DNA of 33,662 bases, taken from IMG/VR virus record IMGVR_UViG_3300048914_000159, positions 1 to 33,662 of that record; one strand, written 5' to 3'. Below the pieces are notes generated by a model. The model saw only the letters and a program-made list of their open reading frames with translations. It ran no database searches and was not told the DNA's origin. The translations under genes were made by a program, and so were the position numbers. Position 1 is the stretch's first letter, and each line of letters starts with the position of its first letter. Shown here piece after piece: positions 5,275 through 24,269 of this stretch. This DNA is from a virus.

Positions 5275-6012
5275 CTACACTCCGAAAAGCTCGTTCGTAG
5301 TCAGCACTTTGTGAATCGATTTTATGTGCTCTCGCTTGATTTGTACGTGAGACTCGGGATTTCGCTTGAGGATAGATAGGTGCCGTTCTGTCCGTTTTGC
5401 GTAGACGCCTAGAGTGGCTTCAACATTCACCTCATCAATTGCGGCCTGAACCACGATAACGTCGCCAATACGAGGTGGGCGGTGGGGGTGCACGTAGATG
5501 AGGTCTCCGGGGAAATACTGAGGCTCCATCGAAGATCCCTCAACAAAAAGAGCATACACATCACGCGCACCCGTCAATGCTGGTGGCCTCCGCACGTAGT
5601 CGATTACATCGCTGGTTACTTGGAATGCGCCTTTGAGATGCGAGCCGGCTGCTGTTCCGCGCACGGGCACATCATTCGGCATATCGGCGCGGTTTGGGAT
5701 CGGCACGTTCGCTGGATGGATTTCTGACCAAGTCGGTGTGGGCGTTTTGATTTGGGTAAAGGCTAAAGATCCGTCCTCCCGGATTGCGGTGACGTCATCG
5801 ACCGGTCCTTCACCCGTAAGTATCCACTGTTCGGAGACGCGCAATACCTTGGCCAAGCCGGTGAGAGTTTTCCCGGCTGGGATCTGGGTTTCACTCCCAA
5901 GCAGCTTACGCAAGGTGTCTTTGGACAGGCCGGCCTGGATGGACGCGGCTTGGGCGGAGAGTTTCACAGCTTTGAGGCGTTCGCTTATGCGAATAGCAAT
6001 TGGATTTCCCAT
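5275..6012 (-). CDS. CI/LexA-type phage repressor with S24 autoprotease domain
   Basis: This 245-aa protein starts at ATG 6012; longer readings would cross the operators. Residues about 8-66 form an XRE-type HTH (AASIQAGLSKDTLRKLLGS). The C-terminal half is an S24/LexA-like peptidase: Ala122-Gly123 as the likely self-cleavage bond, Ser161 in EGSSMEP as nucleophile, and Lys206 in YAKR as general base. Cleavage during the SOS response would induce the prophage. The gene is divergent from the Cro-position gene across three operators. There is no Shine-Dalgarno upstream, and an operator ends three bases before the ATG, so the mRNA is probably leaderless, as for lambda cI from pRM. It is co-transcribed with the secreted protein gene. 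Confidence 0.92.
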   Translation of the reverse strand: MGNPIAIRISERLKAVKLSAQAASIQAGLSKDTLRKLLGSETQIPAGKTLTGLAKVLRVSEQWILTGEGPVDDVTAIREDGSLAFTQIKTPTPTWSEIHPANVPIPNRADMPNDVPVRGTAAGSHLKGAFQVTSDVIDYVRRPPALTGARDVYALFVEGSSMEPQYFPGDLIYVHPHRPPRIGDVIVVQAAIDEVNVEATLGVYAKRTERHLSILKRNPESHVQIKREHIKSIHKVLTTNELFGV

Positions 6013-6014
6013 GT

Positions 6015-6030
6015 GCGGAATTCTATCCGC
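6015..6030. promoter_or_regulatory. Operator OR3-like
   Basis: GCGGAATTCTATCCGC, a diverged copy of the operator consensus placed three bases upstream of the cI start codon. It covers the TAGAAT -10 of the presumed repressor promoter, so binding here should shut off cI, as lambda OR3 does. Confidence 0.7.
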
Positions 6031-6047
6031 TCTTGTGGATTTCGGAA
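6020..6047 (-). promoter_or_regulatory. Repressor promoter (pRM-like)
   Basis: On the minus strand a good -10 (TAGAAT, 6025-6020) is followed seven bases later by the cI ATG. The best -35 at 16-17 bp is weak (TTCCGA, 6047-6042). OR2 lies immediately upstream, which suggests dependence on activation by repressor bound there. The start would be at about 6013, giving a leaderless mRNA. Confidence 0.5.
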
Positions 6048-6048
6048 G

Positions 6049-6064
6049 GCGGAATAAATTCTGT
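6049..6064. promoter_or_regulatory. Operator OR2-like
   Basis: GCGGAATAAATTCTGT, the weakest dyad of the three right operators (one half-site diverged). Its centre is 23 bp from OR1 and 34 bp from OR3. It lies between the two divergent promoters and touches the -35 of the rightward one. Confidence 0.65.
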
Positions 6065-6092
6065 TGACTTGGCGGAAATGATTCCGCATCTT
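6064..6092 (+). promoter_or_regulatory. Right early promoter (pR-like)
   Basis: TTGACT (6064-6069), 17-base spacer, CATCTT (6087-6092), with operator OR1 filling the spacer. The layout and the -10 hexamer match those of the left promoter. The predicted start falls at about 6099-6101, on or next to the ATG of the first rightward gene. Confidence 0.7.
6072..6087. promoter_or_regulatory. Operator OR1-like
   Basis: GCGGAAATGATTCCGC, with OL1 the closest to a perfect dyad, inside the spacer of the rightward promoter. It is expected to be the strongest right-hand repressor site. Confidence 0.75.
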
Positions 6093-6100
6093 CTGCCGTC

Positions 6101-6358
6101 ATGACACTCAGAGAACAGCTCATATCAGTATCCGATCTGTATGGTGAGGCTCGCGGCATAGGTCGCCAGCGCGTTTCGACGATTGTCCTCAATAGAGGTG
6201 CTTCGTTGGATCTGATCGCAACTGGTCGTGCCGATTTGAATACCGGTACCTTCGAGAAGGCTATGCAGTGGTTTTCGGATAATTGGCCTGATGTTGCTGT
6301 TTGGCCGGCCGATGTGTCTCGCCCGGAGCGATCTTTTGTCGCTGAGGCGGTGGGATGA
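6101..6358 (+). CDS. Cro-position regulator (85 aa)
   Basis: A small protein whose residues 21-60 (RQRVSTIVLNRGASLDLIATG, then FEKAMQWFSDNW) read as helix, short turn and helix of a compact DNA-binding or dimerisation fold. I recall similar proteins just across from the repressor in many rhizobial prophages. The position, first gene rightward from the repressor, is that of cro. No Shine-Dalgarno precedes ATG 6101, and the predicted transcription start is at the ATG, so translation is probably leaderless. The stop overlaps a following small ORF as ATGA. The Cro role is inferred from position; the HTH is not textbook. Confidence 0.75.
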   Translation: MTLREQLISVSDLYGEARGIGRQRVSTIVLNRGASLDLIATGRADLNTGTFEKAMQWFSDNWPDVAVWPADVSRPERSFVAEAVG

Positions 6359-6604: not shown

Positions 6605-6626
6605 CCTTTTGCCCGGAGATACGGCT

Positions 6627-7133
6627 ATGCAGGACACGTTGACCAATGCCTGGTTTCACCAGCTCAAGGCAGCCAATCGGCTGCTGATCAAGAAGAACGG
6701 CGGTATCGAGGCCGCCGCCGATGTCTGCTCTCTTTCGAAAAGTCAGGTCGGCCGGTGTAATGCGGACAGCGATACTGAGCTTTTGCCGATCCCGGCTGTT
6801 CTTCGGCTGGAGGCAGAATGCGGCGATCCGTGCGTCACGCGAGTAATGGCCGGCCTTCACGGCTGCAAGCTGACGGATCCAGAGCAGGTCAACAGCGACG
6901 GAACGTGCCTCGTGCGCGGCTCGCTGGATATCGGCGCCGCTGCCAACGAGTACCAGCGTAACGCCTCAATCGCCTATTCCGACTTGAAGGTGACGAGGCA
7001 GGAAGCGCGACAAGGCATGCGTGATCTGCAGAAGCTCGTTGACGAGGCGAACGAGCAAATGACCCGCTATTCGGAAATCATCGCTCGCGGCGGTGACAAC
7101 TCGCCGGCACTTAAGATCGTCGGCGGGGAGTAG
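6627..7133 (+). CDS. CII/CP76-like phage regulatory protein (168 aa)
   Basis: The start is ATG 6627 with GGAGA six to eight bases upstream; an in-frame TTG at 6609 lacks a site. Residues 1-80 follow the pattern of the phage CII/CP76 regulator family: FHQLKAANRLLIKKNGGIEA, then AADVCSLSKSQVGRC as an HTH whose recognition helix is SLSKSQVGRC, then LPIPAVLRLEAECGDPCVTR. The C-terminal part (residues 120-155) is a long helix likely to oligomerise. It should bind DNA and set the lysis-lysogeny balance or early gene expression. Two TTTCCC dyads just upstream are candidate autoregulatory sites. The family call is moderate. Confidence 0.75.
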   Translation: MQDTLTNAWFHQLKAANRLLIKKNGGIEAAADVCSLSKSQVGRCNADSDTELLPIPAVLRLEAECGDPCVTRVMAGLHGCKLTDPEQVNSDGTCLVRGSLDIGAAANEYQRNASIAYSDLKVTRQEARQGMRDLQKLVDEANEQMTRYSEIIARGGDNSPALKIVGGE

Positions 7134-9923: not shown

Positions 9924-10204
9924 ACCCGATCGTCGATATCCTCGTCGGGCTCGCGACCGATCGCCAGCGGGCGGAATGGCTTTCCACGATACCGCTCGGG
10001 GTCGTCCAGCGTGACGCAGTCGACATCTCCGAGGCCTTACGATTCGCCAAGTTCGAAGCCGGGCGCGCCTATCTCGCGGCGCTCGTCGCTCATGTGAATT
10101 CCGTGCGGATGGAGGACGGGTCGATCCCCGCCGAGACCCGCCAGACAACCGAATATGCCCGCAAGCTGATGTGGGGCGCAGTCAAGCAGGGGGAATCCGA
10201 ATGA
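9920..10204 (+). CDS. Hypothetical protein (94 aa), GTG start
   Basis: The GTG start at 9920 overlaps the previous stop, and the stop overlaps the C5 methyltransferase start as ATGA. The protein is helical (IVDILVGLATDRQRAEWLST, AVDISEALRFAKFEAGRAYL) without a recognised domain. Co-translation with the methyltransferase suggests a shared expression need, not a known function. Confidence 0.7.
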   Translation: MNPIVDILVGLATDRQRAEWLSTIPLGVVQRDAVDISEALRFAKFEAGRAYLAALVAHVNSVRMEDGSIPAETRQTTEYARKLMWGAVKQGESE

Positions 10205-12075
10205 ACATGCACCAGGCGTCGCTCTTCGCGGCCTTGGCGTCCTCGACGCTTCTGGCGGCCGGGCCGGCCGGACCGATCATCATCGACAGCTTTGCCGGGG
10301 GCGGCGGCGCATCGACCGGCATAGAGCAGGCTCTCGGCCGCTCGCCGGATTATGCCATTAACCACAACGCCGCGGCGCTGGCGCTGCATGCCGTCAACCA
10401 CCCGAACACGATCCATCTTTCGGAGAATGTCTACAAGATCGATCCGCTCGACCACCTGCGCGGAAAGCATATCGGGCTCGCCTGGTTCTCGCCGGACTGC
10501 AAGCATTTCTCGAAAGCCAAGGGCGGAAAGCCGGTCTCACGCAACATCCGCGATCTGTGCTGGATCATTCCCGGCTGGGTGGAGCGCATCCAGAAAAGCG
10601 GTGGCAAGGTCGACGTCGTGATGATGGAGAATGTCGAGGAGTTCAAGGATTACGGCCCGCTGATCCAGACCGCCAAGGGCGAGCGCCCGGACCCGGAGCG
10701 CAAGGGCGAGACGTTCCAGAAATGGTGCAAGAAACTCCGCGGCCTCGGCGCAAGGATGGAGATGCGCCAGTTGCGCGGCCGGGACTATGGCGCGCCGACG
10801 ATCCGCAAGCGGCTGTTCATTATCATGCGCTTCGACGGTGAGAAGATCGTGTGGCCGGAGCCGACGCATGGCGCGCTCAACGATCCCGATGTTGTCGCCG
10901 GGCGTAAGCTGCCCTGGCCGATCACTGCCGACAGCATCGATTTCAGCATGCCGTGCCCTTCGATCTTCGAAACCTCTGCCGAGATCTATGCCAAGCACGG
11001 CCTGCGTGCTGTGCGTCCGCTGGCCGACGCTTCAGAGGCTCGAATTGCAAGAGGATTCGATCGATACGTGTTGAAGGCGGCGCGGCCGTTTCTCGTAAAT
11101 CTCACCCATGGCGGCCGTGTCGAGAATATCGACGAGCCAATCAAGACGATTACTGGTGCGCGCCGGGGCGAAAAGGCACTGGTCGCACCGCACATCATGA
11201 CCATGCGCAATGCGCAGAAGCCTTATAGCGGACTGGACGAGCAGACCCACACGATCACGGCCGGCGGGGCTCACCAGATGCTTGTGGCGCCCGTGCTGAC
11301 CTATGCGCAGCAGGGGGGTGGCAATCGGCCGATCGACGGGCAGGCGCACACGATCACCGCGAGCGGAAAGGACCAGAATTCGGTACTCGTCGGCTTCATG
11401 GCGCAGGCGAACAATGACAGCCGGCGTATAGGCGGCGTAAATCCCGGCCGTGGCCTCGACGAGGCGGCTTCGACCATCACGCAGACCGGATCGCACCAGC
11501 AGCTCGTCTCTGCGTATGTGGCGCGCGATTTCGGAACGTCGACCGGGCATGCGGTGGACGTGTCGGCCGGGACAGTGATGCCGGAGGGACAGGGCAAGAG
11601 CAGGCTGATTCTGCCATATCTGCAATCCTACTACGGGACCGGCGATGGCGGCCGCGAGGACGAGCCGTGCCGCACCGTGACGGTGCGTGATAGGTTCGGG
11701 CACATTGAGGCCACGGTCGACGTACCGCCTTTCACCGAGGCGCAGGCAGGCAGGGCGCGGCAGGTCGCTGACTTCCTGAGGGCGCATGGCGTGTGGGACG
11801 AGCGCGAATTCGTCACGGTCGATATAGACGGCGCAACGTTCGTCGTCGTCGATATTGGCATGCGCATGCTGACGCCACGCGAGCTTTACAGCCTGCAGGG
11901 CTTTCCCGCCGACTACCAGATCGACGGCTATGACGACGGCAACAAATGGGTGTCGTTCTCCAAGGAAGTGCAGGTCTCCTGCGTCGGCAACAGCGTGTGC
12001 CCGCCTGTGGCGAAGGCTCTCGTTGCGGCGAACTGCAATCATCTGGCGGTTCAGGAAGAGCGGGTGGCCGCATGA
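10201..12075 (+). CDS. C5-cytosine DNA methyltransferase with six recognition-region repeats
   Basis: A 624-aa enzyme that would make 5-methylcytosine from AdoMet. Motif I is IDSFAGGGGAS (28-38). Motif IV is a variant, FSPDCKHFS, with catalytic Cys100 in PDC instead of PCQ. Motif VI is ENV at 143-145 and motif VIII lies around RGRDYGAPTIRKR (192-204). Motif IX starts at RELYSLQGFP (560-569) and motif X is GNSVCPPVAKAL (596-607). Between VIII and IX lie six modules of 30-40 residues (301-504), each ending in a TIT- or TVT-type core and usually an LVAP-like strand. This region holds the target-recognition domain in the family, so several DNA targets are possible. The MTase is in the early operon with no restriction enzyme nearby, which suits anti-restriction or self-marking. 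Confidence 0.9.
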   Translation: MNMHQASLFAALASSTLLAAGPAGPIIIDSFAGGGGASTGIEQALGRSPDYAINHNAAALALHAVNHPNTIHLSENVYKIDPLDHLRGKHIGLAWFSPDCKHFSKAKGGKPVSRNIRDLCWIIPGWVERIQKSGGKVDVVMMENVEEFKDYGPLIQTAKGERPDPERKGETFQKWCKKLRGLGARMEMRQLRGRDYGAPTIRKRLFIIMRFDGEKIVWPEPTHGALNDPDVVAGRKLPWPITADSIDFSMPCPSIFETSAEIYAKHGLRAVRPLADASEARIARGFDRYVLKAARPFLVNLTHGGRVENIDEPIKTITGARRGEKALVAPHIMTMRNAQKPYSGLDEQTHTITAGGAHQMLVAPVLTYAQQGGGNRPIDGQAHTITASGKDQNSVLVGFMAQANNDSRRIGGVNPGRGLDEAASTITQTGSHQQLVSAYVARDFGTSTGHAVDVSAGTVMPEGQGKSRLILPYLQSYYGTGDGGREDEPCRTVTVRDRFGHIEATVDVPPFTEAQAGRARQVADFLRAHGVWDEREFVTVDIDGATFVVVDIGMRMLTPRELYSLQGFPADYQIDGYDDGNKWVSFSKEVQVSCVGNSVCPPVAKALVAANCNHLAVQEERVAA

Positions 12076-13460
12076 CGACCGGGCCACGACTTTCCATCAT
12101 TCCCGCCTGGATTATCACGGACCCGCGCTTGAAGGGCAAAGATCTGCAGGTGCTGTGCATGCTCGGCCGCAATGCCAACACGCGGCACGGCTGGTGCCGA
12201 CGCAGCCAGGTGCAGCTTTCCAAGGCGCTGGACTGCTCGCGCTCAACCGTCCAGGCGGCAATCAATCGCCTCGTCGAGATCGGTGCGCTGGAGCGCCGTG
12301 AGGTCATCGAGAAGAGCGGCCGTGATAGCGCCCATTGGTATCGTGTTGTTTATGACAGCGTCGTAGACAGCTCTGCGTTCGACGCATGGGATGCCGAGGA
12401 CGAACAGGAATTTGATCCTAATCAGGAGCTTGAAAACAGGGGTACCCCTGCCGGTATATCGGCACCCCCTGCCGATCCAGAGTCGGCACCCCCTGCCGGT
12501 TCTGGACCGGCACCTATTAACGCCTCTTCTCTAACGCCTCCTGATAAACGAAATCAGAGAGAGGCGCGCGAGCGCGGATCTTCGGAAGTTCATGGAACGA
12601 TAAATGCGGCACTCATCAAGCGGGTGCAGAGCTTTTGCACCGGCCACGGCTACCGTGAAGGCGAATGGCCAAAGTGGATGGGCTCCACCATCGGGCATAT
12701 CGCGCAGCAATTCGCCAAGCTCACGGGTGAGCAGCAGGATGCTGCCTGCGCTGGACGTGACGTGTTCCTGGCCAAATGCGAGAGGGACCGAACGAGCAAG
12801 CCCATGCCGGTCGCGAACTATTTCCGCGATCTGGTCTGGGAAATGCTGACGGATGCGGATCGGTCGGCTTTCGCCAGCAAACATGCTGGGCAAGGTGGTC
12901 CTCAGCAGGCCGTGAATGGTCGTATCGCTGCACCGATCTTCGGGCCGGTCTGGTCGATTGCACGGATGATGCCTTTGCTCAATGGTCCAGCGGATGTTGA
13001 ACCCGCCGACCGGGAGAAGGTGCGCAGCTCCTATGAGACGCTGGCGAGCTATAGCCCCAGCCGGGCTGCGGCTTACGCGCAGCGGAAGGGCCTGTGGCTT
13101 GATGCCGACGGCACACTCGTTTTCCCTGATGATTTCGACCAGGTCGAATACGGCAACGCCGTGTTGGCGGAAGGATATCCGGAAGTGAACCGCTTGCACG
13201 AGGCAGCAAAGAACCGGGAGCGGGCGGCGGTAAGCGCGCGTTACGAAGCGCTGAAGGATCTAGTCGAGCCGGTCAAGGTCGGGTCTCAAACGTGGAGCGC
13301 GTGGCGCGAAAAGCATGAGCGGGAAAACTGGCCATGGGTGCCAGACACGGGAACATTCCCGGTCGTCTATTTCCCGAAGGGTGGTCCGGAAGGGCTGAGT
13401 GAATTCGAGCGCGCTGCGCGCTCCATGTTGGATGCGAGGGCAAACGATGATGCAGAATAA
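12072..13460 (+). CDS. Winged-helix replication initiator-like protein (462 aa)
   Basis: The start is ATG 12072 in an ATGA overlap with the methyltransferase. Residues about 20-95 are a winged helix of the HTH_36 kind (GKDLQVLCMLGRNANTRHGW, SQVQLSKALDCSRSTVQAAI, NRLVEIGALERR). A Pro/Ala/Gly-rich linker follows (about 120-150), encoded by 21-24-bp DNA repeats. The C-terminal region is mainly helical, with no helicase or primase motif. The domain order (DNA-binding head, linker with repeats in the DNA, C-terminal partner domain) is that of lambda O. It probably binds the phage origin and recruits host helicase. That role is inferred. Confidence 0.7.
   Translation: MTTGPRLSIIPAWIITDPRLKGKDLQVLCMLGRNANTRHGWCRRSQVQLSKALDCSRSTVQAAINRLVEIGALERREVIEKSGRDSAHWYRVVYDSVVDSSAFDAWDAEDEQEFDPNQELENRGTPAGISAPPADPESAPPAGSGPAPINASSLTPPDKRNQREARERGSSEVHGTINAALIKRVQSFCTGHGYREGEWPKWMGSTIGHIAQQFAKLTGEQQDAACAGRDVFLAKCERDRTSKPMPVANYFRDLVWEMLTDADRSAFASKHAGQGGPQQAVNGRIAAPIFGPVWSIARMMPLLNGPADVEPADREKVRSSYETLASYSPSRAAAYAQRKGLWLDADGTLVFPDDFDQVEYGNAVLAEGYPEVNRLHEAAKNRERAAVSARYEALKDLVEPVKVGSQTWSAWREKHERENWPWVPDTGTFPVVYFPKGGPEGLSEFERAARSMLDARANDDAE
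12441..12514 (+). repeat. Iteron-like repeats inside the initiator gene (candidate phage origin)
   Basis: Two perfect 15-bp copies of CGGCACCCCCTGCCG start at 12460 and 12484. A diverged copy lies before them (TACCCCTGCCGG from 12443) and a partial one after (CGGCACC at 12508). Each full copy is a dyad, CGGCA-N5-TGCCG. Spacing of 21-24 bp is in frame with the gene and about two helical turns. AT-richer sequence follows from 12514. Lambda has its origin iterons inside gene O in the same relative place. Confidence 0.55.
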
Positions 13461-14142
13461 GAAGATCAACGGCGAAAAGCTCTCTTATCGTCCCATGAGG
13501 GAGGCTGAGCTGAGCGATAGAGAGCGCTACAAAGCCTATGAGGCACGTGACAGGGCATCCGCTTTGCGATCTGCTCAACACCACCTCATAAGCGAGGCTT
13601 CAGTCGAGCGACCTGATTTCGACAATCTGTCGCGCTGGATCGTCACGACATGCCGACCCGGCAGTGAGCAGACCATATCGGAAGAGCTCCACAGCGCTCG
13701 AATCAAGTCGTGGTGCCCACTTGAAAAATTCAGAACGCGGCCTCGTCGAGCTCTCAAGCCTGTGGAAATCTATCGCCCATTCTTCCGGGGCTATCTCTTT
13801 GTGAAGGTAGTTCCAACACCGGAGGCCTTCGCCGGTGTGCTTTCAGCGTCGCGCTTGAACGCCATCATGAGCAGGGATGGCAAGCCATATCTGATGCCGC
13901 CAAGAATAATGGATGTGCTTATGGTTGGAATGCAAAAAAGAACGAAAATACAGAATGATGAGGTCAAGCTGCCTTTCACGATCGGTGATCGCATGAGGAT
14001 CGTGGATGGTCCTTTTAGCAGCTTTACTGCAATGGTGAGGGCGGCTCTTCCTGATCGCTGGCAGGCGGAGGTAGAGGTCGAGATATTCGGTCGGATGACC
14101 CCTATGACGCTCGATATTGACTCTCTCGCTTATGACACTTAA
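13447..14142 (+). CDS. NusG-family transcription antiterminator paralogue (231 aa)
   Basis: I start at ATG 13447 (GAGGG six bases upstream; ATG 13450 is equally possible). After a charged N-terminal extension (1-60) comes an NGN domain at about 63-163: RWIVTTCRPGSEQTISEEL, WCPLEKFRTRPRR and the hallmark RPFFRGYLFVKV. A KOW-type domain follows at about 177-228 (FTIGDRMRIVDGPFSSFTAM, then VEVEIFGRMTPMTLDIDSL). NusG paralogues such as RfaH and LoaP bind RNA polymerase and suppress termination on chosen operons. This gene ends the early operon and precedes a candidate late promoter and terminator, the position of lambda Q. Late antitermination is therefore a strong inference. Confidence 0.88.
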   Translation: MMQNKKINGEKLSYRPMREAELSDRERYKAYEARDRASALRSAQHHLISEASVERPDFDNLSRWIVTTCRPGSEQTISEELHSARIKSWCPLEKFRTRPRRALKPVEIYRPFFRGYLFVKVVPTPEAFAGVLSASRLNAIMSRDGKPYLMPPRIMDVLMVGMQKRTKIQNDEVKLPFTIGDRMRIVDGPFSSFTAMVRAALPDRWQAEVEVEIFGRMTPMTLDIDSLAYDT

Positions 14143-14242
14143 CGATTCTGGCCATGGCAGATTGATTCTTTCGTTTCTGCCTTTGGGATGACCGGGGCGT
14201 CTGATGCTCCTTAGGGATTGATGTTCTCCCCCGGCCCCCGCT

Positions 14243-14271
14243 CTGACAGCGCCTTGCAGGGTGCATAGATT
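14243..14271 (+). promoter_or_regulatory. Candidate late promoter
   Basis: CTGACA (14243-14248, five of six consensus bases), 17-base spacer, TAGATT (14266-14271, four of six). The start would be near 14278, giving a transcript of about 55 bases up to the terminator. The -10 overlaps a GATTC (GANTC) site at 14268-14272, so adenine methylation could affect it. Prediction by eye only. Confidence 0.4.
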
Positions 14272-14307
14272 CAGGGCTGGTGCTACTGCTATGTTTAAAA
14301 CTCCGAT

Positions 14308-14332
14308 AAGGCGGCCGAAGGGTCGCCTTTTT
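14308..14332 (+). terminator. Intrinsic terminator before the late genes (tR'-like)
   Basis: AAGGCGGCC (14308-14316) pairs with GGTCGCCTT (14321-14329) over nine pairs, one of them G-T, around a GAAG tetraloop, and runs into a T tract ending at 14332. It faces rightward, between the candidate late promoter and the first late gene. It is the terminator that a Q-like factor would have to overcome. Confidence 0.8.
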
Positions 14333-14382
14333 CCGTTATAGGATATACCGAAAATTTTGACCGATTGCTGATGGAGGCTGCC

Positions 14383-14418
14383 ATGCTCCTCGTCGCTGTA
14401 ATGGCGGCATCGTCATGA
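14383..14418 (+). CDS. 11-residue leader peptide upstream of the GPZ-like gene
   Basis: ATG 14383 has a perfect GGAGG five bases upstream and encodes MLLVAVMAASS. Its TGA (14416-14418) overlaps the ATG of the following gene as ATGA (14415-14418). The following gene has no good ribosome-binding site of its own. The short ORF therefore most likely exists to deliver ribosomes to it by coupling. A regulatory leader is also possible. Confidence 0.5.
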   Translation: MLLVAVMAASS

Positions 14419-14957
14419 GTGTCGAGTTTAAGTTCGATGCTTCCGACTTCGCCAGGGTGGCGAAGATCTACGCGTCCATGCCGCGCGAATTGCAGCAGAT
14501 CGCATTCCGTCGAGCAGCTGCCAGAGCGAGGGGCGCGGTCGAGCGTGACTATGCACGCTTCGCCTCGAAAGTCCTGAAAATCGCGCAGCGTCTCGTTCGC
14601 CAGCGGATGCGATCGAGGATCATCGATTCGGATATCGTCCTGTCAGTGCGGTCTACGAACATCCCGTTGGATCAGATCGGTGCGAGCCAACGCGGTTATG
14701 GCGTTTATGTCCGTGGTCGCGGCAGGTACGAGGGGGCGTTCATTGCCCGAAAAAACTCGAAGTCTGCCGCAGGGCTGGTTCTGCAGCGCAAGTCGTCGTC
14801 ACGGTTGCCGACGCAGATGCTTTTCGGACCAAGCCCGGCCAACGCAATCCAGCGCAAGCCGGAGGACTACGAGAACCTGCTGGCGGAGATCGCGGCGGGT
14901 GAGTTCGCGAGGACGATCCTGCAGCAGGCAGCCTTCCTCCTCGGTCGGGCAGGGTGA
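14415..14957 (+). CDS. Phage minor tail protein Z (GPZ)-like protein (180 aa)
   Basis: The protein follows the pattern of lambda gpZ-type minor tail proteins: a basic helical N-terminus (FRRAAARARGAVERDYARF), KVLKIAQRLVRQRMRSRI, then IPLDQIGASQRGYGVYVRGR, YEGAFIARKNSKSAAG, and RLPTQMLFGPSPANAI near the C-terminus. The order of these segments is characteristic. In lambda gpZ acts late in tail completion. Here the gene lies alone, upstream of the packaging genes and left of the presumed cos, unlike lambda where Z is with the head-tail genes. It is the first full-length gene of the late transcript. Confidence 0.75.
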   Translation: MSVEFKFDASDFARVAKIYASMPRELQQIAFRRAAARARGAVERDYARFASKVLKIAQRLVRQRMRSRIIDSDIVLSVRSTNIPLDQIGASQRGYGVYVRGRGRYEGAFIARKNSKSAAGLVLQRKSSSRLPTQMLFGPSPANAIQRKPEDYENLLAEIAAGEFARTILQQAAFLLGRAG

Positions 14958-14982
14958 CCCCTGACCCCCTTCGGGGTGGGGT
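14957..14982 (+). other. GC-rich stem-loop after the GPZ-like gene
   Basis: ACCCC (14957-14961) with GGGGT (14978-14982) and ACCCC (14964-14968) with GGGGT (14973-14977) form two stacked 5-bp stems with a two-base bulge. No T tract follows. It could be part of the cos region or an mRNA-stabilising hairpin. Confidence 0.45.
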
Positions 14983-15000
14983 GGTACCCCCCCTGGATCA

Positions 15001-15035
15001 GGGACCGTACCCCGGTTTCCATGCCAGACGGTCCC
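15001..15035. other. Dyad GGGACCGT/ACGGTCCC, candidate cosN
   Basis: Perfect 8-bp arms at 15001-15008 and 15028-15035 flank a 19-base GC-rich centre, about 130-165 bases upstream of the small terminase gene. Lambda cosN is also a rotationally symmetric site ahead of Nu1. No T tract is present, so a terminator is unlikely. Confidence 0.4.
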
Positions 15036-15079
15036 GGCGGAGCGCAGATCTCTGCCAGTTTTAGACGTCAAAACATTGG

Positions 15080-15126
15080 GTTAACGGGGTTAACGAGGTT
15101 AACGCACCCGGTTGACGCTAGTTAAC
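15080..15126 (+). repeat. GTTAAC direct repeats, candidate terminase-binding (cosB) site
   Basis: GTTAAC occurs at 15080, 15089 and 15098 with an exact 9-bp period (each followed by G). A diverged GTTGAC is at 15111 and a further GTTAAC at 15121. The cluster lies 40 bases upstream of the small terminase gene, where Nu1-type proteins bind repeated R sites in lambda cosB. No gene is seen in the 14958-15166 gap. Confidence 0.6.
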
Positions 15127-15166
15127 GCCGCTCCCTCGTCCTGGCGGCAAGACAGGATGTGGTTTC

Positions 15167-15772
15167 ATGACCGATGTCATGTGGGGCATAGGCCAGATCG
15201 CCGAGCGCGATGGCGTCTCAAAGGCGGCCGTTTCGAAGACGGTTCGAAAGCTTCTCGAAGCAAGTCCGGACACACCGGTCGAGCGCGGCGGGCAGGGGCA
15301 GGTGATGAAGGTGTCACTTGCTCACTACGACCACTTCCGTCAACGGCATATCAACCCGGCAAAGGCCACAGCGCCGTTGCGGATGGGCACGGAAGCGCCG
15401 CCCCTCGCGGGCGGGACGCGGTCTCCGATTGATCCGAGCGATACGTTCGAAGAGGCCAGGCGTCAGTCGGAATGGCTGAAGGTCGGTCGAGAGAAAATCC
15501 GACATCAGGAGGATTGCGGTCAGCTTGTTCGGCGGGATCGCATCGACGCGTCGCTTTCGAGCGCTGGCGCGGACTTGCAGGCGATCATGCGCCGTCTGCC
15601 GAATCGGGCTGACGACATAGCCATGGCAGTGTCGAAGGAAGGTGTTCACGGCGTGCGTGTTTTGCTCCGCCAGATCGCCTTCGACATGGGTAACCAGATG
15701 GCGGACAGGCTTGCTGAGATTGCAGTCTCCGCTCCCGAGCACGACGAGCTTATCGAGGACGAAGAGCGGTGA
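15167..15772 (+). CDS. Terminase small subunit, Nu1-like (201 aa)
   Basis: The N-terminus is an HTH (MWGIGQIAERDGVSKAAVSK), followed by HYDHFRQRHINPAKATAP, the pattern of phage DNA-packaging Nu1-type subunits in alphaproteobacterial phages. A helical middle region (residues 95-150) is probably for oligomerisation, and the acidic C-terminus probably contacts the large subunit. It recognises phage DNA at cos and loads the large subunit. GTTAAC repeats lie just upstream. The stop overlaps the GTG of the large subunit gene (GTGA). Confidence 0.82.
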   Translation: MTDVMWGIGQIAERDGVSKAAVSKTVRKLLEASPDTPVERGGQGQVMKVSLAHYDHFRQRHINPAKATAPLRMGTEAPPLAGGTRSPIDPSDTFEEARRQSEWLKVGREKIRHQEDCGQLVRRDRIDASLSSAGADLQAIMRRLPNRADDIAMAVSKEGVHGVRVLLRQIAFDMGNQMADRLAEIAVSAPEHDELIEDEER

Positions 15773-17766
15773 CAGTTCATCCTGGTGCGTTGCGGATCGT
15801 CTCGTCCGTCTTGGCGAGCGCAATCCGTCCGCAGCCACCGGTTCCGTTTCCGATCTGGCTGCCGAAAAACATCGTGCTCGTCGATGGCCCGAAAAAGGGA
15901 GAGTTTTGGTCGGCCGACGATGCGCCGTACCTGCCCGAAATTGCCGAGTGCCTTAGTCAGGAGCATCCTTGCAACCTGGTCACGGTCCGCAAGTCACAGC
16001 AGACCGGAGTATCCATCCTTGCGCTTGCTTGGATGCTCTACATTGCCGAGGTCTGCCCCGACAACGCGCTGTATGGCGTGCCCGGTCTGGATGCGCTTCG
16101 CGACATCAACTCAGGCAAGATGCAGCCGCTGATCGACGAGTGGCAGAAGAAGACTGGAAAAGCTGTTGTTTATCCGACGACGCAACGCAGCGGTGACGGT
16201 TCGACGACGTACGAGAAGAAATTCCCGGGCGGCGCGATCTATCTCGCCAACGCCAACACGGTCATGGACCTGTCGGCCAAAACGACTCGCTACGGGGTGA
16301 AGGACGAAGTTTCGAAGTGGCAGGAGCTGCCAAACGGCGCTGATCCCGAAAACCTATTTTTCGGTCGCTTCACCGCCTTCCGCCGCCAGAAGAGTTTCAA
16401 GATCTTCGAACTGTCGACGCCCGAACTTGATAGCGGCGATGAGCTGGGCGAGGGGCCGGGGCACTGCAGAATCGACCGCTCCTTTCGTCGGTCGGATAAG
16501 AGGTTCTGGAACATCCGTTGCCCTGAGTGCGGCAACGAGCTCGTCCAGTGTGACGCCTATCTGAAGATCGACCGGGCGCACCCGCACAAATCGTACATGC
16601 AATGCCCGCACTGCGAGCACGGCATCTCTGAATTGGAACGGGTTGCGGGGGTCAGGGCAGGTCGTTATATCGCCACGGCTGAGGGACCGGACAGGCATCC
16701 TGGCTTCAACGTCGATGCCTTCATGTCGTTGATGATGTCCTACGAGGCGATCGCCGAGGACAAGATCAACTTCGAAGCCAAAGGCGAGGCCGGCGCGAAG
16801 GACTACCATAATCTGGTTTTGGCCCTGCCATACCAGATGAAAGGCAACGCTCCCGATCACAAGCGGCTAATGGAGCGGCGCGAAAATTATGCGCCGAACA
16901 TCATCCCCGCGGGAGGGTTGCTTTTCACGGCCGGCGCCGACGTTCAGGGCTACGGGATCTTCTGCGAAGGCGTCGCCTTTTCCGAGGATCGTCAGAGCTG
17001 GAATGTCTTTGCAGAGTTTTTCGAAGGTGCGACCGACAATCCGCAGCAAGGGGCGTGGGTTCTCCTCGAGGAGTTCTTTGCCAGCGAGTTCGCGGATGCC
17101 CATGGTGTTCTGAGGAAGATCGAGGCGCTTGCGGTCGACAGTGGCTATCGTACCAACCAGGTGTTGGAGTGGTGCCGTCGCCATCCGAACGCTTATGCGA
17201 TCAAGGGTGTCGAGGGTCGCGGTGTTCCTGCGATCAGCGCCCCATCGAACAAGTCGGTCAGCAAGCGCGGCAAGAAGAAGCGGTTCGGATCAGCGCGAAG
17301 CTGGCCGGTTGGGACTTGGCCACTTAAAGCCGAGTTCTACGGCAACCTCTACAAAATGGGCTTGGCGGCCGGTGAGGCTACCGATCCGCCTGGCTATTGC
17401 CACTTCCACAAAGATCTCGGCGAGGAATACTTCCAGCAGATCACTGCGGAATATTTCAAGCAGAGCCTCGTGAAGGGCAAGCTGCACGAGGAGTGGCTGA
17501 AGCGTCGTCCCGATAACCATTTTCTGGATTGCCGGATCTACGCCATGGCGATGGCTGAGCATCTTGGCTTGTCGACCATGACGAAAGAGGCCTGGGCAAA
17601 ACTGAGAGCCTCACTTGAGCCAGCGTTGATCACGGATCTGCTTTCGCCGCCGAGTCACCAACTCATGTCGGCGCGCGAGCCTCCTGCCGCGGCTCCACCG
17701 CCGCCACCAGCAGCCAGCGCGCCTAAGCCGCCGGAGAAAGAAAACCGATGGAAGAAGCGCAGGTAA
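15769..17766 (+). CDS. Terminase large subunit, lambda gpA family (665 aa)
   Basis: Start GTG 15769. The ATPase part has an unusual Walker A-like segment, RKSQQTGVS (74-82), as in gpA-type terminases, and a YGVKDE segment (175-180) near Walker B. A zinc knuckle pair follows: Cys251, Cys254, Cys279, Cys282. The second half holds the nuclease domain, beginning with the strand LLFTAGADVQ and later ALAVDSGYRTNQV. The tail is proline/alanine rich and basic. It translocates DNA into the prohead with ATP and cuts at cos. The family is firm and implies cos-type packaging. The 3' end overlaps the portal gene by 19 bases. Confidence 0.93.
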   Translation: MTVHPGALRIVSSVLASAIRPQPPVPFPIWLPKNIVLVDGPKKGEFWSADDAPYLPEIAECLSQEHPCNLVTVRKSQQTGVSILALAWMLYIAEVCPDNALYGVPGLDALRDINSGKMQPLIDEWQKKTGKAVVYPTTQRSGDGSTTYEKKFPGGAIYLANANTVMDLSAKTTRYGVKDEVSKWQELPNGADPENLFFGRFTAFRRQKSFKIFELSTPELDSGDELGEGPGHCRIDRSFRRSDKRFWNIRCPECGNELVQCDAYLKIDRAHPHKSYMQCPHCEHGISELERVAGVRAGRYIATAEGPDRHPGFNVDAFMSLMMSYEAIAEDKINFEAKGEAGAKDYHNLVLALPYQMKGNAPDHKRLMERRENYAPNIIPAGGLLFTAGADVQGYGIFCEGVAFSEDRQSWNVFAEFFEGATDNPQQGAWVLLEEFFASEFADAHGVLRKIEALAVDSGYRTNQVLEWCRRHPNAYAIKGVEGRGVPAISAPSNKSVSKRGKKKRFGSARSWPVGTWPLKAEFYGNLYKMGLAAGEATDPPGYCHFHKDLGEEYFQQITAEYFKQSLVKGKLHEEWLKRRPDNHFLDCRIYAMAMAEHLGLSTMTKEAWAKLRASLEPALITDLLSPPSHQLMSAREPPAAAPPPPPAASAPKPPEKENRWKKRR

Positions 17767-19385
17767 AACCGAAGGTACGGGTAAAGGCGGTTGGGATATC
17801 CTCACCATCGTCGCCGGCAACGCCGAAACCTGGGCGGGCGCGTGGTGACTACCTGCGCGATACCCGATCGGGAATTATCGCGTCTCGTCCTGCCTACATC
17901 CGCGAGCATCGTGACGAGATCCGTCGCGTTTGGGACCGGACGGCCGCTCTGGCCATGGACCTGATCCAGAACAGCGGGCGGCTGAAAGGTGCGTGCGATC
18001 AGATCATCGCTGACACCGTTGGGACAGAGCTTTCGCTCAATCCGCAGCCCGATTTGACGGGCCTCGGGTACAATGATGCTGAGCGCCGCGATTTCATCGC
18101 GCTGATCAAGCGATGGTGGAAGCGCTACGCATGGAATGCAGCTGAGTGCGACGTTCGTGGAAAACTGACCATCCCCCAACAGGGCGACGTCGGTATCCGC
18201 TGGTGGATGGCATATGGTGAAAGCCTGTCGCAGATGCAGTATTTCGACGAAGCGAAACGTCGTCGATACGGTCTCGTCAGCGGCGCCAAGGTTCTGATGA
18301 TCCCTCCTCATAGGTTGGTCAATCAGACCAGTGAGGTCGAGGGCCTCTATCAGGGCGTCTTTCATGACGCGAACGGCCGAGCCGAAGCTTACCGCACGCG
18401 GTCTCGCGAGGATGGATTGCTCGTCACTCGTGACCTTGCGGCGCGAGATCGCGATGGTCGGCTGCTCGTATCGCACGTGTTTGATCCGATCGATGCGACC
18501 GATGTTCGCGGGTTGTCGCCGCTGGCTTCCGCGTTTCGCCGTCATATTCAGCACGAAACGCTGGATGACGCGACGCTGCAAATGGCTGTTCTGCAGACGA
18601 TCTTTGCCGTCACGCTCACCAGCGATCGGCCGAGCGCGGATGCGTTCGAGGCTCTGGAAGCGCTGAAGGAACATGGTGGCGATGTCGCAAAAGATGTAGC
18701 GGCTGACTTCACCAACTATTTCGCGGCTCAGCTCGACAGGGCGGCGGATTCTAGCATTAACATCAGTGGCGACCCGACCGTTTCGCACCTCGCACCTGGT
18801 GAGCGGCTCGGCATCGAGTCGGCCAAGGTGCCGGGCAGGGACTATCTGCCATTTGCAGCAAGCCTCTCGCGAGACATGGCGCGCGCCATGGGCGTCACGT
18901 ACGGCGGCCTGACGATGGACTATTCTGCCGCGACCTATTCGTCAGTCAGGATGGAGGGTTCAAGCATCTGGCCAGTCGTCACACGAAGGCGGGAACGGAT
19001 CGCCGCTCCACACTACCAAGTGCCTTACGAGCATGGTCTCGAGGAGGAGATTGCGACGGGTCGCATCCCGTTCAAAGGCGGTTACGAAGCCTTTGCAGCG
19101 AACCGTGACCGTATCTTTTGGGCGCAGTGGCAAGGGCCGGCGAAGCCGACGGCGGATGATCTCAAGTCGGCAAAGGCTTCGAGTGAAAAGATTGCCAACG
19201 GGACCACGTCTTTGGAACGGCAATGCGCTGAAGATGGCGTCGATCACGACGAGATCTTTGAGGAGCGCCTCCGTGAGCATCGTCGATATGTCGATGCTGG
19301 GATGGTTTCACCCTATGACCGAAACCGTCCGAGCGTTGCCGCCGGCGGTGACGAGAGCGAACCGCGGGAACCAGACGATGCCTAA
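17748..19385 (+). CDS. Portal protein, lambda gpB family (545 aa)
   Basis: The order of segments matches lambda-type portals: YLRDTRSGIIASRPAYIREH, LIQNSGRLKGACDQIIADTV, a KRWWKRYAWNAAECDVRG segment, IPPHRLVNQTSEVEGLYQGV, FDPIDATDVRGLSPLASAFR, LGIESAKVPGRDYLPFAASL, then MGVTYGGLTMDYSAATYSSV. The dodecameric portal is the DNA entry ring of the prohead, the packaging motor dock and the tail joint. The start at ATG 17748 lies inside the terminase 3' end. It is followed by a gpW-like gene with a short overlap. Confidence 0.93.
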   Translation: MEEAQVKPKVRVKAVGISSPSSPATPKPGRARGDYLRDTRSGIIASRPAYIREHRDEIRRVWDRTAALAMDLIQNSGRLKGACDQIIADTVGTELSLNPQPDLTGLGYNDAERRDFIALIKRWWKRYAWNAAECDVRGKLTIPQQGDVGIRWWMAYGESLSQMQYFDEAKRRRYGLVSGAKVLMIPPHRLVNQTSEVEGLYQGVFHDANGRAEAYRTRSREDGLLVTRDLAARDRDGRLLVSHVFDPIDATDVRGLSPLASAFRRHIQHETLDDATLQMAVLQTIFAVTLTSDRPSADAFEALEALKEHGGDVAKDVAADFTNYFAAQLDRAADSSINISGDPTVSHLAPGERLGIESAKVPGRDYLPFAASLSRDMARAMGVTYGGLTMDYSAATYSSVRMEGSSIWPVVTRRRERIAAPHYQVPYEHGLEEEIATGRIPFKGGYEAFAANRDRIFWAQWQGPAKPTADDLKSAKASSEKIANGTTSLERQCAEDGVDHDEIFEERLREHRRYVDAGMVSPYDRNRPSVAAGGDESEPREPDDA

Positions 19386-19653
19386 CATGGTGAAGATCGG
19401 CGCAGCGCTCGTCGATGCGGATGATCCCTGCGCTCTCTATGCTGCCCTCTATGCGGTGCGAGTGCAGCGATTGGCCGGAGGACAGATCGAGGAGAGTGAG
19501 ATCCGCTCTCCGATCATGCATCAACGCATCAAGCTCGCGTCATCGAGCGTGGCCGACATCGATGCGGAGCTAGCCAGGCTCTCTGCCGCCTGCGAACTGA
19601 AAACCAACGGCAGACGCACGCGATACGCCAAGCGTATCCGCTTCTGCCCATGA
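19378..19653 (+). CDS. Head-tail joining protein, gpW-like (91 aa)
   Basis: ATG 19378 overlaps the portal stop. The protein has two helices around a short hairpin (DPCALYAALYAVRVQRLAGG, then SSSVADIDAELARLSAAC) and ends GRRTRYAKRIRFCP, the typical basic Gly-Arg-Arg end of gpW proteins. gpW plugs the portal and prepares it for tail attachment. In lambda W sits between A and B; here it follows the portal, a common variation. Assignment is by pattern and position. Confidence 0.75.
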   Translation: MPNMVKIGAALVDADDPCALYAALYAVRVQRLAGGQIEESEIRSPIMHQRIKLASSSVADIDAELARLSAACELKTNGRRTRYAKRIRFCP

Positions 19654-19663
19654 GGGGGCGATC

Positions 19664-20590
19664 ATGAGTTTTGCCTACGGACAGATCGCGCAGCGTGTGT
19701 TCAACACGCCGCTGCTCTACGACGACAGAAAGGCCGAAGCATTCCTCGCCGGTCTTGGCGGTCGCATCGCAGGGGCATCGGTCGTGATTGCCAATCCGAG
19801 CGGAGCGATCGAACACACAGCCTTTGAGAACGGCCGGCCGTCGGCGGGGCGTCTTGGCGATGGCCTCGGACGTTATTACGAACGCCGCGGCATCAACATG
19901 GTCGACGTCGTCGAAAATGTTGCCGTCATTCCGATTGAAGGAAGCTTGATCCACAAAGGTGGTTGGGTTGGAGCGTCATCTGGCGAGACTTCCTATCAAG
20001 GCCTGCAAACGCAGCTCGCGTGGGTTGAGAAAAATCGGGCCAAGCTCAAGGGCGCTGTTTTCGAGATCGATTCCTACGGCGGGGAGGTGAGTGGCGCATT
20101 CGAGACGGCGGCGATGATGCGGCGCGTTTCGAAAATCATGCCGACTATCGCGATCCTAACCGATTTCGCCTACTCAGCCGGGTACATGATGGCGTCGCAG
20201 GCGAGACAGATCATCATGCCGAAATTCGGCGGGGCTGGCTCCATCGGCGTCATAATGGTCCATGCCGACTACAGCGCGCAGTACATGCAGCAGGGCATCA
20301 AGGTCACTATCATTCGGTCTGGCGCTCAGAAGGCCAAGGGGAATCCATTCGAGCCTCTCGACGATCGCGTGGCCGACCGCTGGCAGGCTGAGGTCGATGC
20401 CATGCGCGCCGATTTCGCCGTACTGGTCGCCATGGGACGGGGACGCCGCTTCAGCGCGGCCAAGGCGCTTGCGACGGAAGCCGAGCCCTATGGAGCTGAA
20501 GAGGCGGTGAGACTCGGTCTCGCCGACGCGATCGGAGATCCGTCCGAGGCGTTCGATCAATTCATTCGCGAAGTCAACCGGAGCAACTGA
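19664..20590 (+). CDS. S49-family prohead protease, lambda gpC-like (308 aa)
   Basis: The S49 (SppA-like) core is visible: VAVIPIEGSLIHKGGW, FEIDSYGGEVSGAFE, then the nucleophile Ser171 in AYSAGYMMAS, GSIGVIMVH, and Lys223 in SGAQKAKGNP as the likely general base, 52 residues after the serine. It processes scaffold and head proteins during capsid maturation. In lambda the same gene also encodes the scaffold; here a separate scaffold-like gene follows two bases after the stop. Confidence 0.9.
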   Translation: MSFAYGQIAQRVFNTPLLYDDRKAEAFLAGLGGRIAGASVVIANPSGAIEHTAFENGRPSAGRLGDGLGRYYERRGINMVDVVENVAVIPIEGSLIHKGGWVGASSGETSYQGLQTQLAWVEKNRAKLKGAVFEIDSYGGEVSGAFETAAMMRRVSKIMPTIAILTDFAYSAGYMMASQARQIIMPKFGGAGSIGVIMVHADYSAQYMQQGIKVTIIRSGAQKAKGNPFEPLDDRVADRWQAEVDAMRADFAVLVAMGRGRRFSAAKALATEAEPYGAEEAVRLGLADAIGDPSEAFDQFIREVNRSN

Positions 20591-20591
20591 G

Positions 20592-21149
20592 ATGACCCGC
20601 AGCGTACTTGCGGCAATCCGGGCATCACTGATGCCCGGAGACGCTGATCCTATCCTCGATGAGGACAAGCCGGATGCTGGAGCATCCATACCTGAAGCTG
20701 GCCCGACACGGGCAAATCAAGAGGACGCCGATATGTCGGAACCTTCGAATACGCCCGCAGGTGCTGCCAGCCAGCCTGCTGCGGGATCCGGTAATGATGA
20801 TGCCATCAAGGCGGCTGGGCTAGCCGGTGAGGAGAAGGGCGCTCGAGCAGCCAACGACCGTCTCGTGACGATCCTCGGCGCCGACGGCATCAAAGGCGAC
20901 GGAAAGCGCATGGGAGCCGCGCTCGATCTCGCCGTTGGCTCGCCGGGCATGTCCGCGGAGCAGGTCACGACCTTCGTCAAGGACAATGTCTCGGCCAACA
21001 GCTCCAGCAATGCTTCCGCTGCTGTCGAGCACGATCGCCGTCGCCAGGCCGCGATGCCGCACGCGCAGCCCGATAAGAGCGGGCCGCGCGGCGACAACAT
21101 GCGCGTCGATATTGTCGCGGATATGAAACGCCGTCACGGCATCAGCTGA
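20592..21149 (+). CDS. Scaffold-like protein (185 aa)
   Basis: A low-complexity acidic N-terminus (Asp, Pro, Ala rich) is followed by an alanine-rich helical region (DAIKAAGLAGEEKGARAAND), which repeats in part of the phage Nu3/scaffold C-terminal pattern (GMSAEQVTTFVKDN), and ends basic (DIVADMKRRHGIS). The position between protease and decoration protein is that of a scaffold. An internal ATG at 20733 with GAGG upstream could give a shorter form, echoing lambda C/Nu3 nesting. No catalytic motif is present. Confidence 0.7.
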   Translation: MTRSVLAAIRASLMPGDADPILDEDKPDAGASIPEAGPTRANQEDADMSEPSNTPAGAASQPAAGSGNDDAIKAAGLAGEEKGARAANDRLVTILGADGIKGDGKRMGAALDLAVGSPGMSAEQVTTFVKDNVSANSSSNASAAVEHDRRRQAAMPHAQPDKSGPRGDNMRVDIVADMKRRHGIS

Positions 21150-21160
21150 GGAGCACATCC

Positions 21161-21547
21161 ATGGAAACCTACTCGTACAAGGTCGATTCCGATGTCGTGA
21201 AGAGCGAGGGCGAAAGCCGCATTTCTCGTGATGACGACACTCTGGCCTCCGGCTCTGGCCTCGTCATCTGCGGTACCGTTCTCGGTCAGATCACGACTGC
21301 CGGCGCCACCTTCGGCAAATTCAAGCCGCTTGCTCCTGCCGCAAACGATGGCACGCAGACGGCAAAGGCCATCATTCTCGAAACCGCCAACGCGACAGCT
21401 GCCGACGTGACGGTCGTCAATCTCAAGCGGCATGCGCAGGTGGTTCTTCAGGCCCTGATTTGGCCGGCCGGCATCACCGACGCGCAGAAAGCGGCGGCGC
21501 TTGCATCCCTTGAAAACACGAGCATCGTCGCTCGAAACGGAGTCTGA
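21161..21547 (+). CDS. Head decoration protein, gpD-like (128 aa)
   Basis: The protein matches the gpD head-decoration layout: a flexible N-terminus, GSGLVICGTVLGQITTAG, AAANDGTQTAKAIILETAN, VVNLKRHAQVVLQALIWPAG, and the C-terminal ALASLENTSIVAR. The small size and location just before the major capsid gene agree. The trimeric decoration protein clamps the expanded capsid. Confidence 0.9.
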   Translation: METYSYKVDSDVVKSEGESRISRDDDTLASGSGLVICGTVLGQITTAGATFGKFKPLAPAANDGTQTAKAIILETANATAADVTVVNLKRHAQVVLQALIWPAGITDAQKAAALASLENTSIVARNGV

Positions 21548-21552
21548 CATTC

Positions 21553-22593
21553 ATGTCTACGGTTATCGACTATCTAAATGCTCCGGAGTTTGCTGACGAC
21601 AAGCTGACGGAAAGCATCAATATTCCGCCGTACCAGACCGGTCGACCTGCCCAGCTCGGAATCTTCTCCGACGAGCCGATCGCAACGACTTACGTCAAGC
21701 TCGGCTACACTTCGGAAGAAATCACGATCATTCCGGCCCGCGAGCGTGGTGGCGAGAGCAATCTCAACATGCGCGGCGATCGCCAAGGCGTCATGATCGA
21801 GATCCCGCATTTTCCGCTGGACGACAAGATTACGCCGAGCGATCTGCAGAACATCCTTGCCTGGGGCGAGGAGGCTGTTTTCGAGACCCTCGGCGGTGTT
21901 CTCAACCGCAAGCTCGGCAGCATTCGCAGCAAGCACGATGCCACTCATTCCCATCTGGACTGGGGCGCGCTAAACGGCATGGTCATCGATGCCGAGGGCA
22001 AGCTGCTCCTCGACCTTTACGACAAGTTCGAGATCGAGCAGACGGTTATCAGCTTCGATCTCGGCGTTGCGACGACCGATATCAGTGCGAAGAACCGCGA
22101 AGCGAAGGCCGCAGTCCGCAAGGCGCTGCGCGGTACAGCCTCTTCCGGTATGATCGCGCTCGCCGGCCCGGCCTTCTTCGACCAGTACGTCGCGCACAAA
22201 TGGGTCCGTGAGAGCCTGCAGAACTATCCCACTGCTGCGGTAAACCCGTCGCGTGACGATGTGCAGGATACCTTCACGTTCTCGGGGCTCCGGCTGGAGC
22301 GTGTCGACGAGGAGTTCAACTATCGTCGTCCTGACGGCACGCTTCTTGCGCGCCCGGCAGTAGCCGACGATGAGGCGGTTCTCATCCCGCTCGGGACGCC
22401 GCACTTCAAGCGGTTCATCGCGCCGCCGGACACTATCGCCGACGCGAACCGTGCGCCGCGCCCGACCGACAAGATCTTCATCTCGACCGAGGATTTGAAG
22501 CACGGCAAGGGCAGGGAAGTGCATTCGGAATCGAACGTGATGCCGATCTGCACGCGCCCCGACCTAATGGTGAAGCTCAAGCTCGAGGAGTAG
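21553..22593 (+). CDS. Major capsid protein, lambda gpE family (346 aa)
   Basis: Length and segments fit the gpE family: IPPYQTGRPAQLGIFSDEPI near the start, TIIPARERGGESNLNMRGDR, then FPLDDKITPSDLQNI, a central alpha-beta body, the SRDDVQDTFTFSGLRLERVD segment, and a C-terminus with LIPLGTPHFKRFIAPPDTI and SESNVMPICTRPDLMVKL. It forms the HK97-fold shell. The gene is preceded by gpD-like and followed by small head-completion genes. Confidence 0.93.
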   Translation: MSTVIDYLNAPEFADDKLTESINIPPYQTGRPAQLGIFSDEPIATTYVKLGYTSEEITIIPARERGGESNLNMRGDRQGVMIEIPHFPLDDKITPSDLQNILAWGEEAVFETLGGVLNRKLGSIRSKHDATHSHLDWGALNGMVIDAEGKLLLDLYDKFEIEQTVISFDLGVATTDISAKNREAKAAVRKALRGTASSGMIALAGPAFFDQYVAHKWVRESLQNYPTAAVNPSRDDVQDTFTFSGLRLERVDEEFNYRRPDGTLLARPAVADDEAVLIPLGTPHFKRFIAPPDTIADANRAPRPTDKIFISTEDLKHGKGREVHSESNVMPICTRPDLMVKLKLEE

Positions 22594-22597
22594 TCCG

Positions 22598-22912
22598 ATG
22601 TTCGCACGTTTCAAAAAGCGTCACGAAGTAATCGATCCTGAAGTCGGGAAAATCATCTACCCGCGCGGCTGGGCCGGTGAACTCGAAAAGGACACCTATA
22701 ATGCCGCCAAGAAAGCGGGTGTCCTGATGCCGTCTCTTGAACTGGAGTCCGCTGCTGCGAAATCCGGCGGGGATGCGCAGAAGATCGCCAAGGCCGAAAA
22801 GGCCCTGGTCGCGGCAAAGGAAAAGCTCGCTACCGCGAGCGAAGCCGAGAAGGCGGCGGCTCAGGTTGCAGTCACTGAGGCCGAAGCTGCCCTCGCGGCC
22901 CTGAAAGCCTGA
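22598..22912 (+). CDS. Small structural protein with coiled coil (104 aa)
   Basis: The N-terminal 45 residues contain YPRGWAGELEKDTYNAAKKA. The C-terminal half is an alanine/lysine/glutamate-rich coiled coil (KAEKALVAAKEKLATASEAE). It sits between the major capsid and the gpFII-like protein, with a ribosome-binding GAGGAG overlapping the capsid stop region. Lambda has FI here, a packaging helper with an alanine-rich N-terminus. An FI-like role is a positional guess; I do not recognise the family. Confidence 0.7.
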   Translation: MFARFKKRHEVIDPEVGKIIYPRGWAGELEKDTYNAAKKAGVLMPSLELESAAAKSGGDAQKIAKAEKALVAAKEKLATASEAEKAAAQVAVTEAEAALAALKA

Positions 22913-22914
22913 CG

Positions 22915-23307: not shown

Positions 23308-23310
23308 ACC

Positions 23311-24039: not shown

Positions 24040-24059
24040 ACTCATTTCGGAGTGAGACC

Positions 24060-24266: not shown

Positions 24267-24269
24267 TCC

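Follow-up and report, generated by a model that had tools for sequence, protein, structure and literature searches.

The window, i.e., the whole stretch of DNA analyzed here (IMG/VR record IMGVR_UViG_3300048914_000159, positions 1–33,662), is a 33.7 kb temperate phage, placed by its relatives among the phages of Rhizobiaceae. The genes that define its layout are the following:

5275–6192, minus strand: S24-type repressor
6609–7133: CII-like activator
11946–13460, plus strand: replication-initiation protein (phrog_270, E=2e-34)
13447–14142, plus strand: NusG paralogue with NGN and KOW domains, 231 aa (Pfam, PHROG and PDB profile matches)
14415–33463, all on the plus strand: late genes (PHROG matches), with the neck gene starting at 14415, TerS at 15167 and TerL (gpA) at 15769

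The replication-initiation gene is the last early gene ahead of nusG, and its end overlaps the nusG start. Beyond the neck and terminase genes, the late region encodes the portal, head maturation protease, capsid, contractile tail and baseplate. The same gene order is found in six characterized phages, phi2LM21, phi3LM21, PPF1, vB_MseS-P1, Rivra and Nsp-JY10. The original prediction for this DNA had placed an NGN–KOW protein at the end of the early operon, ahead of about 19 kb of late genes. Both statements hold: the protein matches PF02357, phrog_6386 and NusG/RfaH profiles, its gene lies between the replication-initiation and late genes, and PHROG matches run from neck to baseplate from position 14415.

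Two DNA methyltransferases are also encoded in the window, and the cytosine methyltransferase at 10171–12075 carries HTITA-type motif repeats in a long middle region between two conserved halves. In Agrobacterium phage Rivra, the immunity/early region contains an annotated tRNA-Leu(cag), located between the repressor gene and the CII gene (L232:36246–36321).

Residues 63–158 of the phage NusG match Pfam NusG (PF02357, E=2e-10), and residues 62–227 match phrog_6386, annotated as ‘transcription antiterminator’ (E=3e-31). When the family profile was compared with solved chains, NusG (E=2e-32) and RfaH (E=1e-16) were recovered, together with the KOW-only chains 1nz9 and 2kvq. Judged by these profiles, the open reading frame at 13447–14142 is a member of the NusG/Spt5 (NGN–KOW) superfamily. 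Ahead of the NGN domain it carries an N-terminal extension of ~60 aa that host NusG does not have. In a tree, the window protein and 25 other phage copies form a single clade (26 copies, support 100/98), separate from seven host NusGs and three unrelated phage NusGs, and the median identity between host and phage NusG is 29%, compared with 80% among host proteins. The phage gene is a true paralogue, since a NusG copy without the RNA element described below is also present in every one of the 20 host genomes in which that element was found.

A second NusG-like family, with open frames of 228–309 aa and no RNA element, was found in Rhizobiaceae genomes (L225, L226, L227 and L228). In these proteins the phrog_6386 match is restricted to the N-terminal part of the profile and is followed by an unrelated C-terminal region. 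Two of these loci have what looks like the 3′ end of a tRNA downstream, a hint that they belong to other mobile elements.

The structured RNA element behind nusG

A conserved structured element of ~130 nt, overlooked in the original prediction, occupies positions 14156–14293, in the interval from the nusG stop codon to the terminator. The first clue came from blastn, where positions 14268–14409 of the window, outside nusG, matched the corresponding segment of Rhizobium phage PPF1 at 74% identity; the NusG proteins of the two phages are only ~29% identical. Alignment of the sequence 3′ of nusG across relatives revealed a conserved structured stretch in every one of them. The features of this region are:

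14156–14181, plus strand: hairpin P0 (GGCAGA...TCTGCC), predicted from sequence and present in this form in the window’s subtype only
14192–14234, plus strand: stem P1, CCGGGG (14192–14197) with CCCCGG (14229–14234), supported by partner permutation
14240–14277, plus strand: hairpin H2, outer stem GCTCTGA (14240–14246) with TCAGGGC (14271–14277)
14249–14264, plus strand: inner stem of H2, GCGCC (14249–14253) with GGTGC (14260–14264)
14278–14293, plus strand: mini-hairpin H3, GGUGC-UACU-GCUAU(G), nearly invariant
14308–14332, plus strand: intrinsic terminator with a 9-bp stem, AAGGCGGCC GAAG GGTCGCCTT TTT

Relatives keep a hairpin at the P0 position with other sequences, for instance GCCGATGG/CCATCGGC in L066 and GGAGAGGCG/CGCCTTTCC in L003. 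P1 opens just after a conserved GGAYGA-like sequence, encloses a domain that varies by subtype, and closes just before H2. Across 55 non-redundant elements its 5′ arm occurs as 30 distinct hexamers, and the mean pairing run is 4.95 with the arm’s own partner versus 3.57 with permuted partners, none of 1000 permutations reaching as high a value.

In an alignment of 85–86 sequences, the outer stem of H2 is 96.3% paired and shows both-sided changes at six of its seven pairs. The covariation score of the whole structure is 0.197, compared with 0.105 for shuffled alignments (0/500) and at most 0.084 when the structure is slid. At the inner H2 pairs, G–T outnumbers A–C by 20 to 2, which matches the expectation if the transcribed plus-strand RNA folds. 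H3 follows the consensus RGUGC-NNNN-GCUAU, with GC/GC closing pairs unchanged in 85/85 sequences. Its loop positions, which were left unconstrained in the search pattern, read GNRA in 36 and UACN in 22 of the 62 non-redundant relatives (together 58/62). Single-sequence folds are no more stable than those of shuffles (z about −1), and P1 is missing from the minimum-energy fold of the window; the case for the structure is therefore a comparative one.

The sequence GCTCTGACA at 14240, boxA-like by eye alone, is one arm of H2, and the arm carrying these letters is rewritten with compensation in L206, L215, L220 and L223. A search of Rfam returned no family at the gathering threshold, and a permissive search gave one non-significant match on the minus strand (E 0.57). 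By its RNA-type covariation, the element P1–H2–H3 is a previously uncatalogued structured RNA.

Linkage of the element to the phage NusG

To follow the element independently of the protein, the DNA pattern GAYTCARRGCNNGTGCNNNNGCTATG was searched alone. At least 119 stretches of viral contigs matched, and 80 loci were returned. Among the matches listed, 75 of the 80 viral loci have a NusG-family ORF 91–154 nt upstream on the same strand, and the remaining five have no more than 235 nt of sequence upstream of the motif before the locus ends. Some 85,000 species genomes yielded 65 copies of the motif, 59 of which lie 86–182 nt behind a NusG-family ORF on the same strand. Three of the other six are cut by the locus edge and three are chance-like, with neither H2 nor NusG (L137, L159 and L189), in line with a rough estimate of ~4 chance matches.

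A covariance model of the element, R1, was then run on host genomes and identified 28 copies in 20 of them, all 28 located 52–143 nt behind a phrog_6386 match. Applied to 248 genomes of the host family, R1 gave 27 hits, of which 26 lie behind NusG, the exception being the weakest hit; the element is thus present in 23 of the 248 sampled genomes (24 with a hit, one of them a false positive). Weak covariance hits without NusG (L218 and L236) were taken as false positives. Widening the search to the order and the class, with stricter filters, added no convincing host beyond this family. The window phage and Rivra each carry a single copy of the element in their entire genomes.

The element is absent at host NusG loci and at the other phage NusGs tested, and is near-exclusively linked to the phage NusG clade. 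The counter-example is a pair of phage-type NusGs in Agrobacterium vitis genomes (L222 and L224), which lie near the window’s clade, have no recognizable element, and possibly belong to prophage remnants. Co-inheritance through physical linkage explains part of the association between element and nusG.

A very diverged element was detected at L223:1775–1838, beside a Pseudochrobactrum prophage NusG. It has a 3-nt H3 loop, an R1 E-value of only 0.05 and a fully rewritten H2 stem (GGAGAAGCG/CGCTTCTCC), indicating that the element family reaches beyond the model. On one contig of Rhizobium oryziradicis N19, three nusG–element copies (L135, L167 and L179) apparently represent three such prophages.

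Terminator and the start of the late genes

The original prediction of a terminator at 14308–14332 is borne out by the 9-bp hairpin found there and by its conservation in position. The bare terminator-like pattern is unremarkable in the window, with three occurrences versus 3.9 expected in shuffles; 50 of the 62 non-redundant relatives have a terminator no more than 84 nt from the conserved motif, compared with 1.2 in shuffles. About a fifth of these relatives have no terminator close behind. Several unrelated stem sequences occupy the terminator position in different relatives, and no antiterminator partner was found upstream of the terminator arm, the pairing being 5.8 against 5.4 for a shuffled arm. 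An RNA-only attenuator with an antiterminator stem was rejected on these two grounds, which together favor a protein switch over an RNA one.

The late genes often begin shortly after the terminator. The next start codon lies at most 45 nt from the terminator stem in 21 of the 39 scorable relatives, and in Rivra, as annotated, 14 nt separate the T-run from the start codon of the first late gene, leaving little room for a promoter in many of these phages. A start codon (TAGGATATGG) stands directly after the terminator in relatives, and positions 14333–14350 of the window instead read TAGGATATACC. The window thus seems to have lost the gene that originally opened its late region, which leaves the neck gene at 14415 in first place.

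A candidate NusG-dependent late switch

We consider it probable that the late genes are controlled by a cis-loaded processive antitermination switch made up of the phage NusG and the structured RNA behind its gene. Early transcription would cover the replication gene, then nusG and the element and, early in infection, stop at the terminator (14308–14332). As the NusG paralogue builds up, nascent P1–H2–H3 RNA would recruit it to the very polymerase that has just made this RNA. Once loaded, the paralogue would displace or pre-empt host NusG/NusA and render the complex terminator-resistant, so that the early promoter could also serve the late operon of ~19 kb, which would need no promoter of its own. 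We infer binding of the element by the protein, read-through of the terminator, the timing of the switch and the choice of host Nus factors displaced. As to the broader claim, we incline, by a narrow measure, to the view that one family of Rhizobiaceae temperate phages relies on a new class of processive antitermination, in which the phage’s own NusG would act as the late switch, loaded by a dedicated, uncatalogued structured RNA directly behind its gene, with no late promoter.

The original prediction likened this locus to the Q–pR′–tR′ logic, operated by an RfaH/LoaP-like factor. The first likeness stands as far as layout is concerned, with a NusG in the Q position, a terminator before the late genes and the same order in six phages; a conserved pR′ is missing. 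The second stands for an RNA of the LoaP style before a terminator and fails for RfaH’s DNA site, as no ops-like site, a check proposed with the original prediction, was found in 14143–14414 (12-mer, up to 2 mismatches). From its covariation, the cis site is best described as a structured RNA, neither a Q-type promoter-proximal site nor ops DNA.

In logic, the phage system appears to work most like LoaP/dfn rather than Q–pR′–tR′. LoaP of Bacillus velezensis depends on a hairpin in the RNA ahead of an intrinsic terminator (PMC12691694). The dfn/mln leader system shares with the phage locus a specialized NusG paralogue, a hairpin followed by an intrinsic terminator, and a long operon beyond (PMC12691694). 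However, LoaP acts in the 5′ leader of antibiotic operons of a Firmicute, whereas the phage element lies at the early/late junction, in the 3′ UTR of the factor’s own gene. LoaP recognition also involves a single small UNCG hairpin, while the phage element is larger (P1, H2 and H3), with GNRA or UACN loops in another closing context; the UNCG-tetraloop dfn hairpin was not found in it. The likeness to LoaP is a works-like one, and we do not equate the phage NusG with LoaP, RfaH or Q.

Like lambda Q, the phage factor is encoded where the early operon ends, with a terminator preceding the late genes and with the logic of a late switch, but Q is an unrelated protein used with pR′, in contrast to an NGN–KOW protein with no conserved promoter and a cis site that behaves as RNA. 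RfaH is likewise a NusG paralogue, and both factors would be expected to stay on the polymerase across a long operon. RfaH uses ops, whereas the phage has no ops match, a covarying RNA as its cis element and a factor that adjoins its single target. GafZ of the Caulobacter gene transfer agent offers another alphaproteobacterial, phage-derived late cluster under antitermination (PMC11150451); it is described as a separate antiterminator acting with host NusA, NusG and NusE and loaded at a promoter with GafY and IHF (PMC11150451).

HK022 put is a phage-encoded structured RNA thought to give a terminator-resistant polymerase, with no phage protein needed (PMC9378689), while the present RNA is paired with a phage NusG. 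The element could itself be an antiterminator of this kind, contacting the polymerase, with the NusG paralogue being auxiliary or acting generally on the phage transcript. A compact RNA of several hairpins directly preceding a terminator would fit such a role, as would the near-invariance of H3 although the NusG sequences diverge to ~20% identity. We nevertheless regard this explanation as unlikely, given that no convincing copy of the element occurs without a NusG-family gene of the phage kind, and that neither host NusG nor any of the other phage NusGs tested has it alongside. In addition, a lone RNA could not delay the late genes, because it would act on the first transcript.

It also seems improbable that element and terminator simply form the 3′ end of the early operon, with NusG promoting termination, as autoregulation or insulation, and the late genes having their own promoter. 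The element is the 3′ UTR of nusG, and housekeeping NusG of other bacteria can stimulate termination (PMC8060035). A late promoter, however, finds little support in the sequence: promoter-like sites in the element region of relatives do not exceed chance, nor do the 2 matches in this region of the window compared with 1.0 expected, and no promoter-like match was found on the plus strand of the window’s late region (14400–33662). Late start codons are, moreover, often close behind the terminator. The lack of promoter-like sites is not conclusive, as alphaproteobacterial promoters can match the consensus poorly.

That the conserved stretch acts as DNA, as an ops-like site for pausing and recruitment, a cos site for packaging or a replication site close to the terminase genes, is very unlikely. 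Its location one to three genes ahead of terminase and the almost invariant H3 sequence would agree with a DNA site, but compensatory changes, one-strand G–U tolerance and GNRA/UACN loop exchange are signatures of RNA, orientation and distance to nusG are fixed, and ops is not matched. The original Q–pR′–tR′ proposal of a late promoter at 14243–14271 is hardly credible and was rejected: its 9/12 consensus match occurs in one of 62 non-redundant relatives, the window itself, compared with 2.6 by chance, and its hexamers, CTGACA and TAGATT, fall on opposite arms of the conserved hairpin H2.

There are few specialized NusG paralogues, and most have been described from chromosomes and plasmids. 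The open-licence full texts searched contained no description of a phage NusG as a late regulator or of this RNA, in agreement with the original remark that an operon-specific NusG as the late switch of a temperate phage seems little described. A review of NusG (PMC7819879) makes no mention of phage-encoded NusG. If correct, the cis-loaded antitermination model would add an RNA-guided NusG paralogue, present in 23 of the 248 sampled genomes of the host family, and offer a candidate answer to how these Rhizobiaceae phages switch on their late genes. It would also supply dozens of natural protein–RNA pairs for studying RNA recognition by a NusG paralogue. Rivra belongs to the element-carrying set and was isolated on Agrobacterium tumefaciens EHA105, which makes the idea directly testable.
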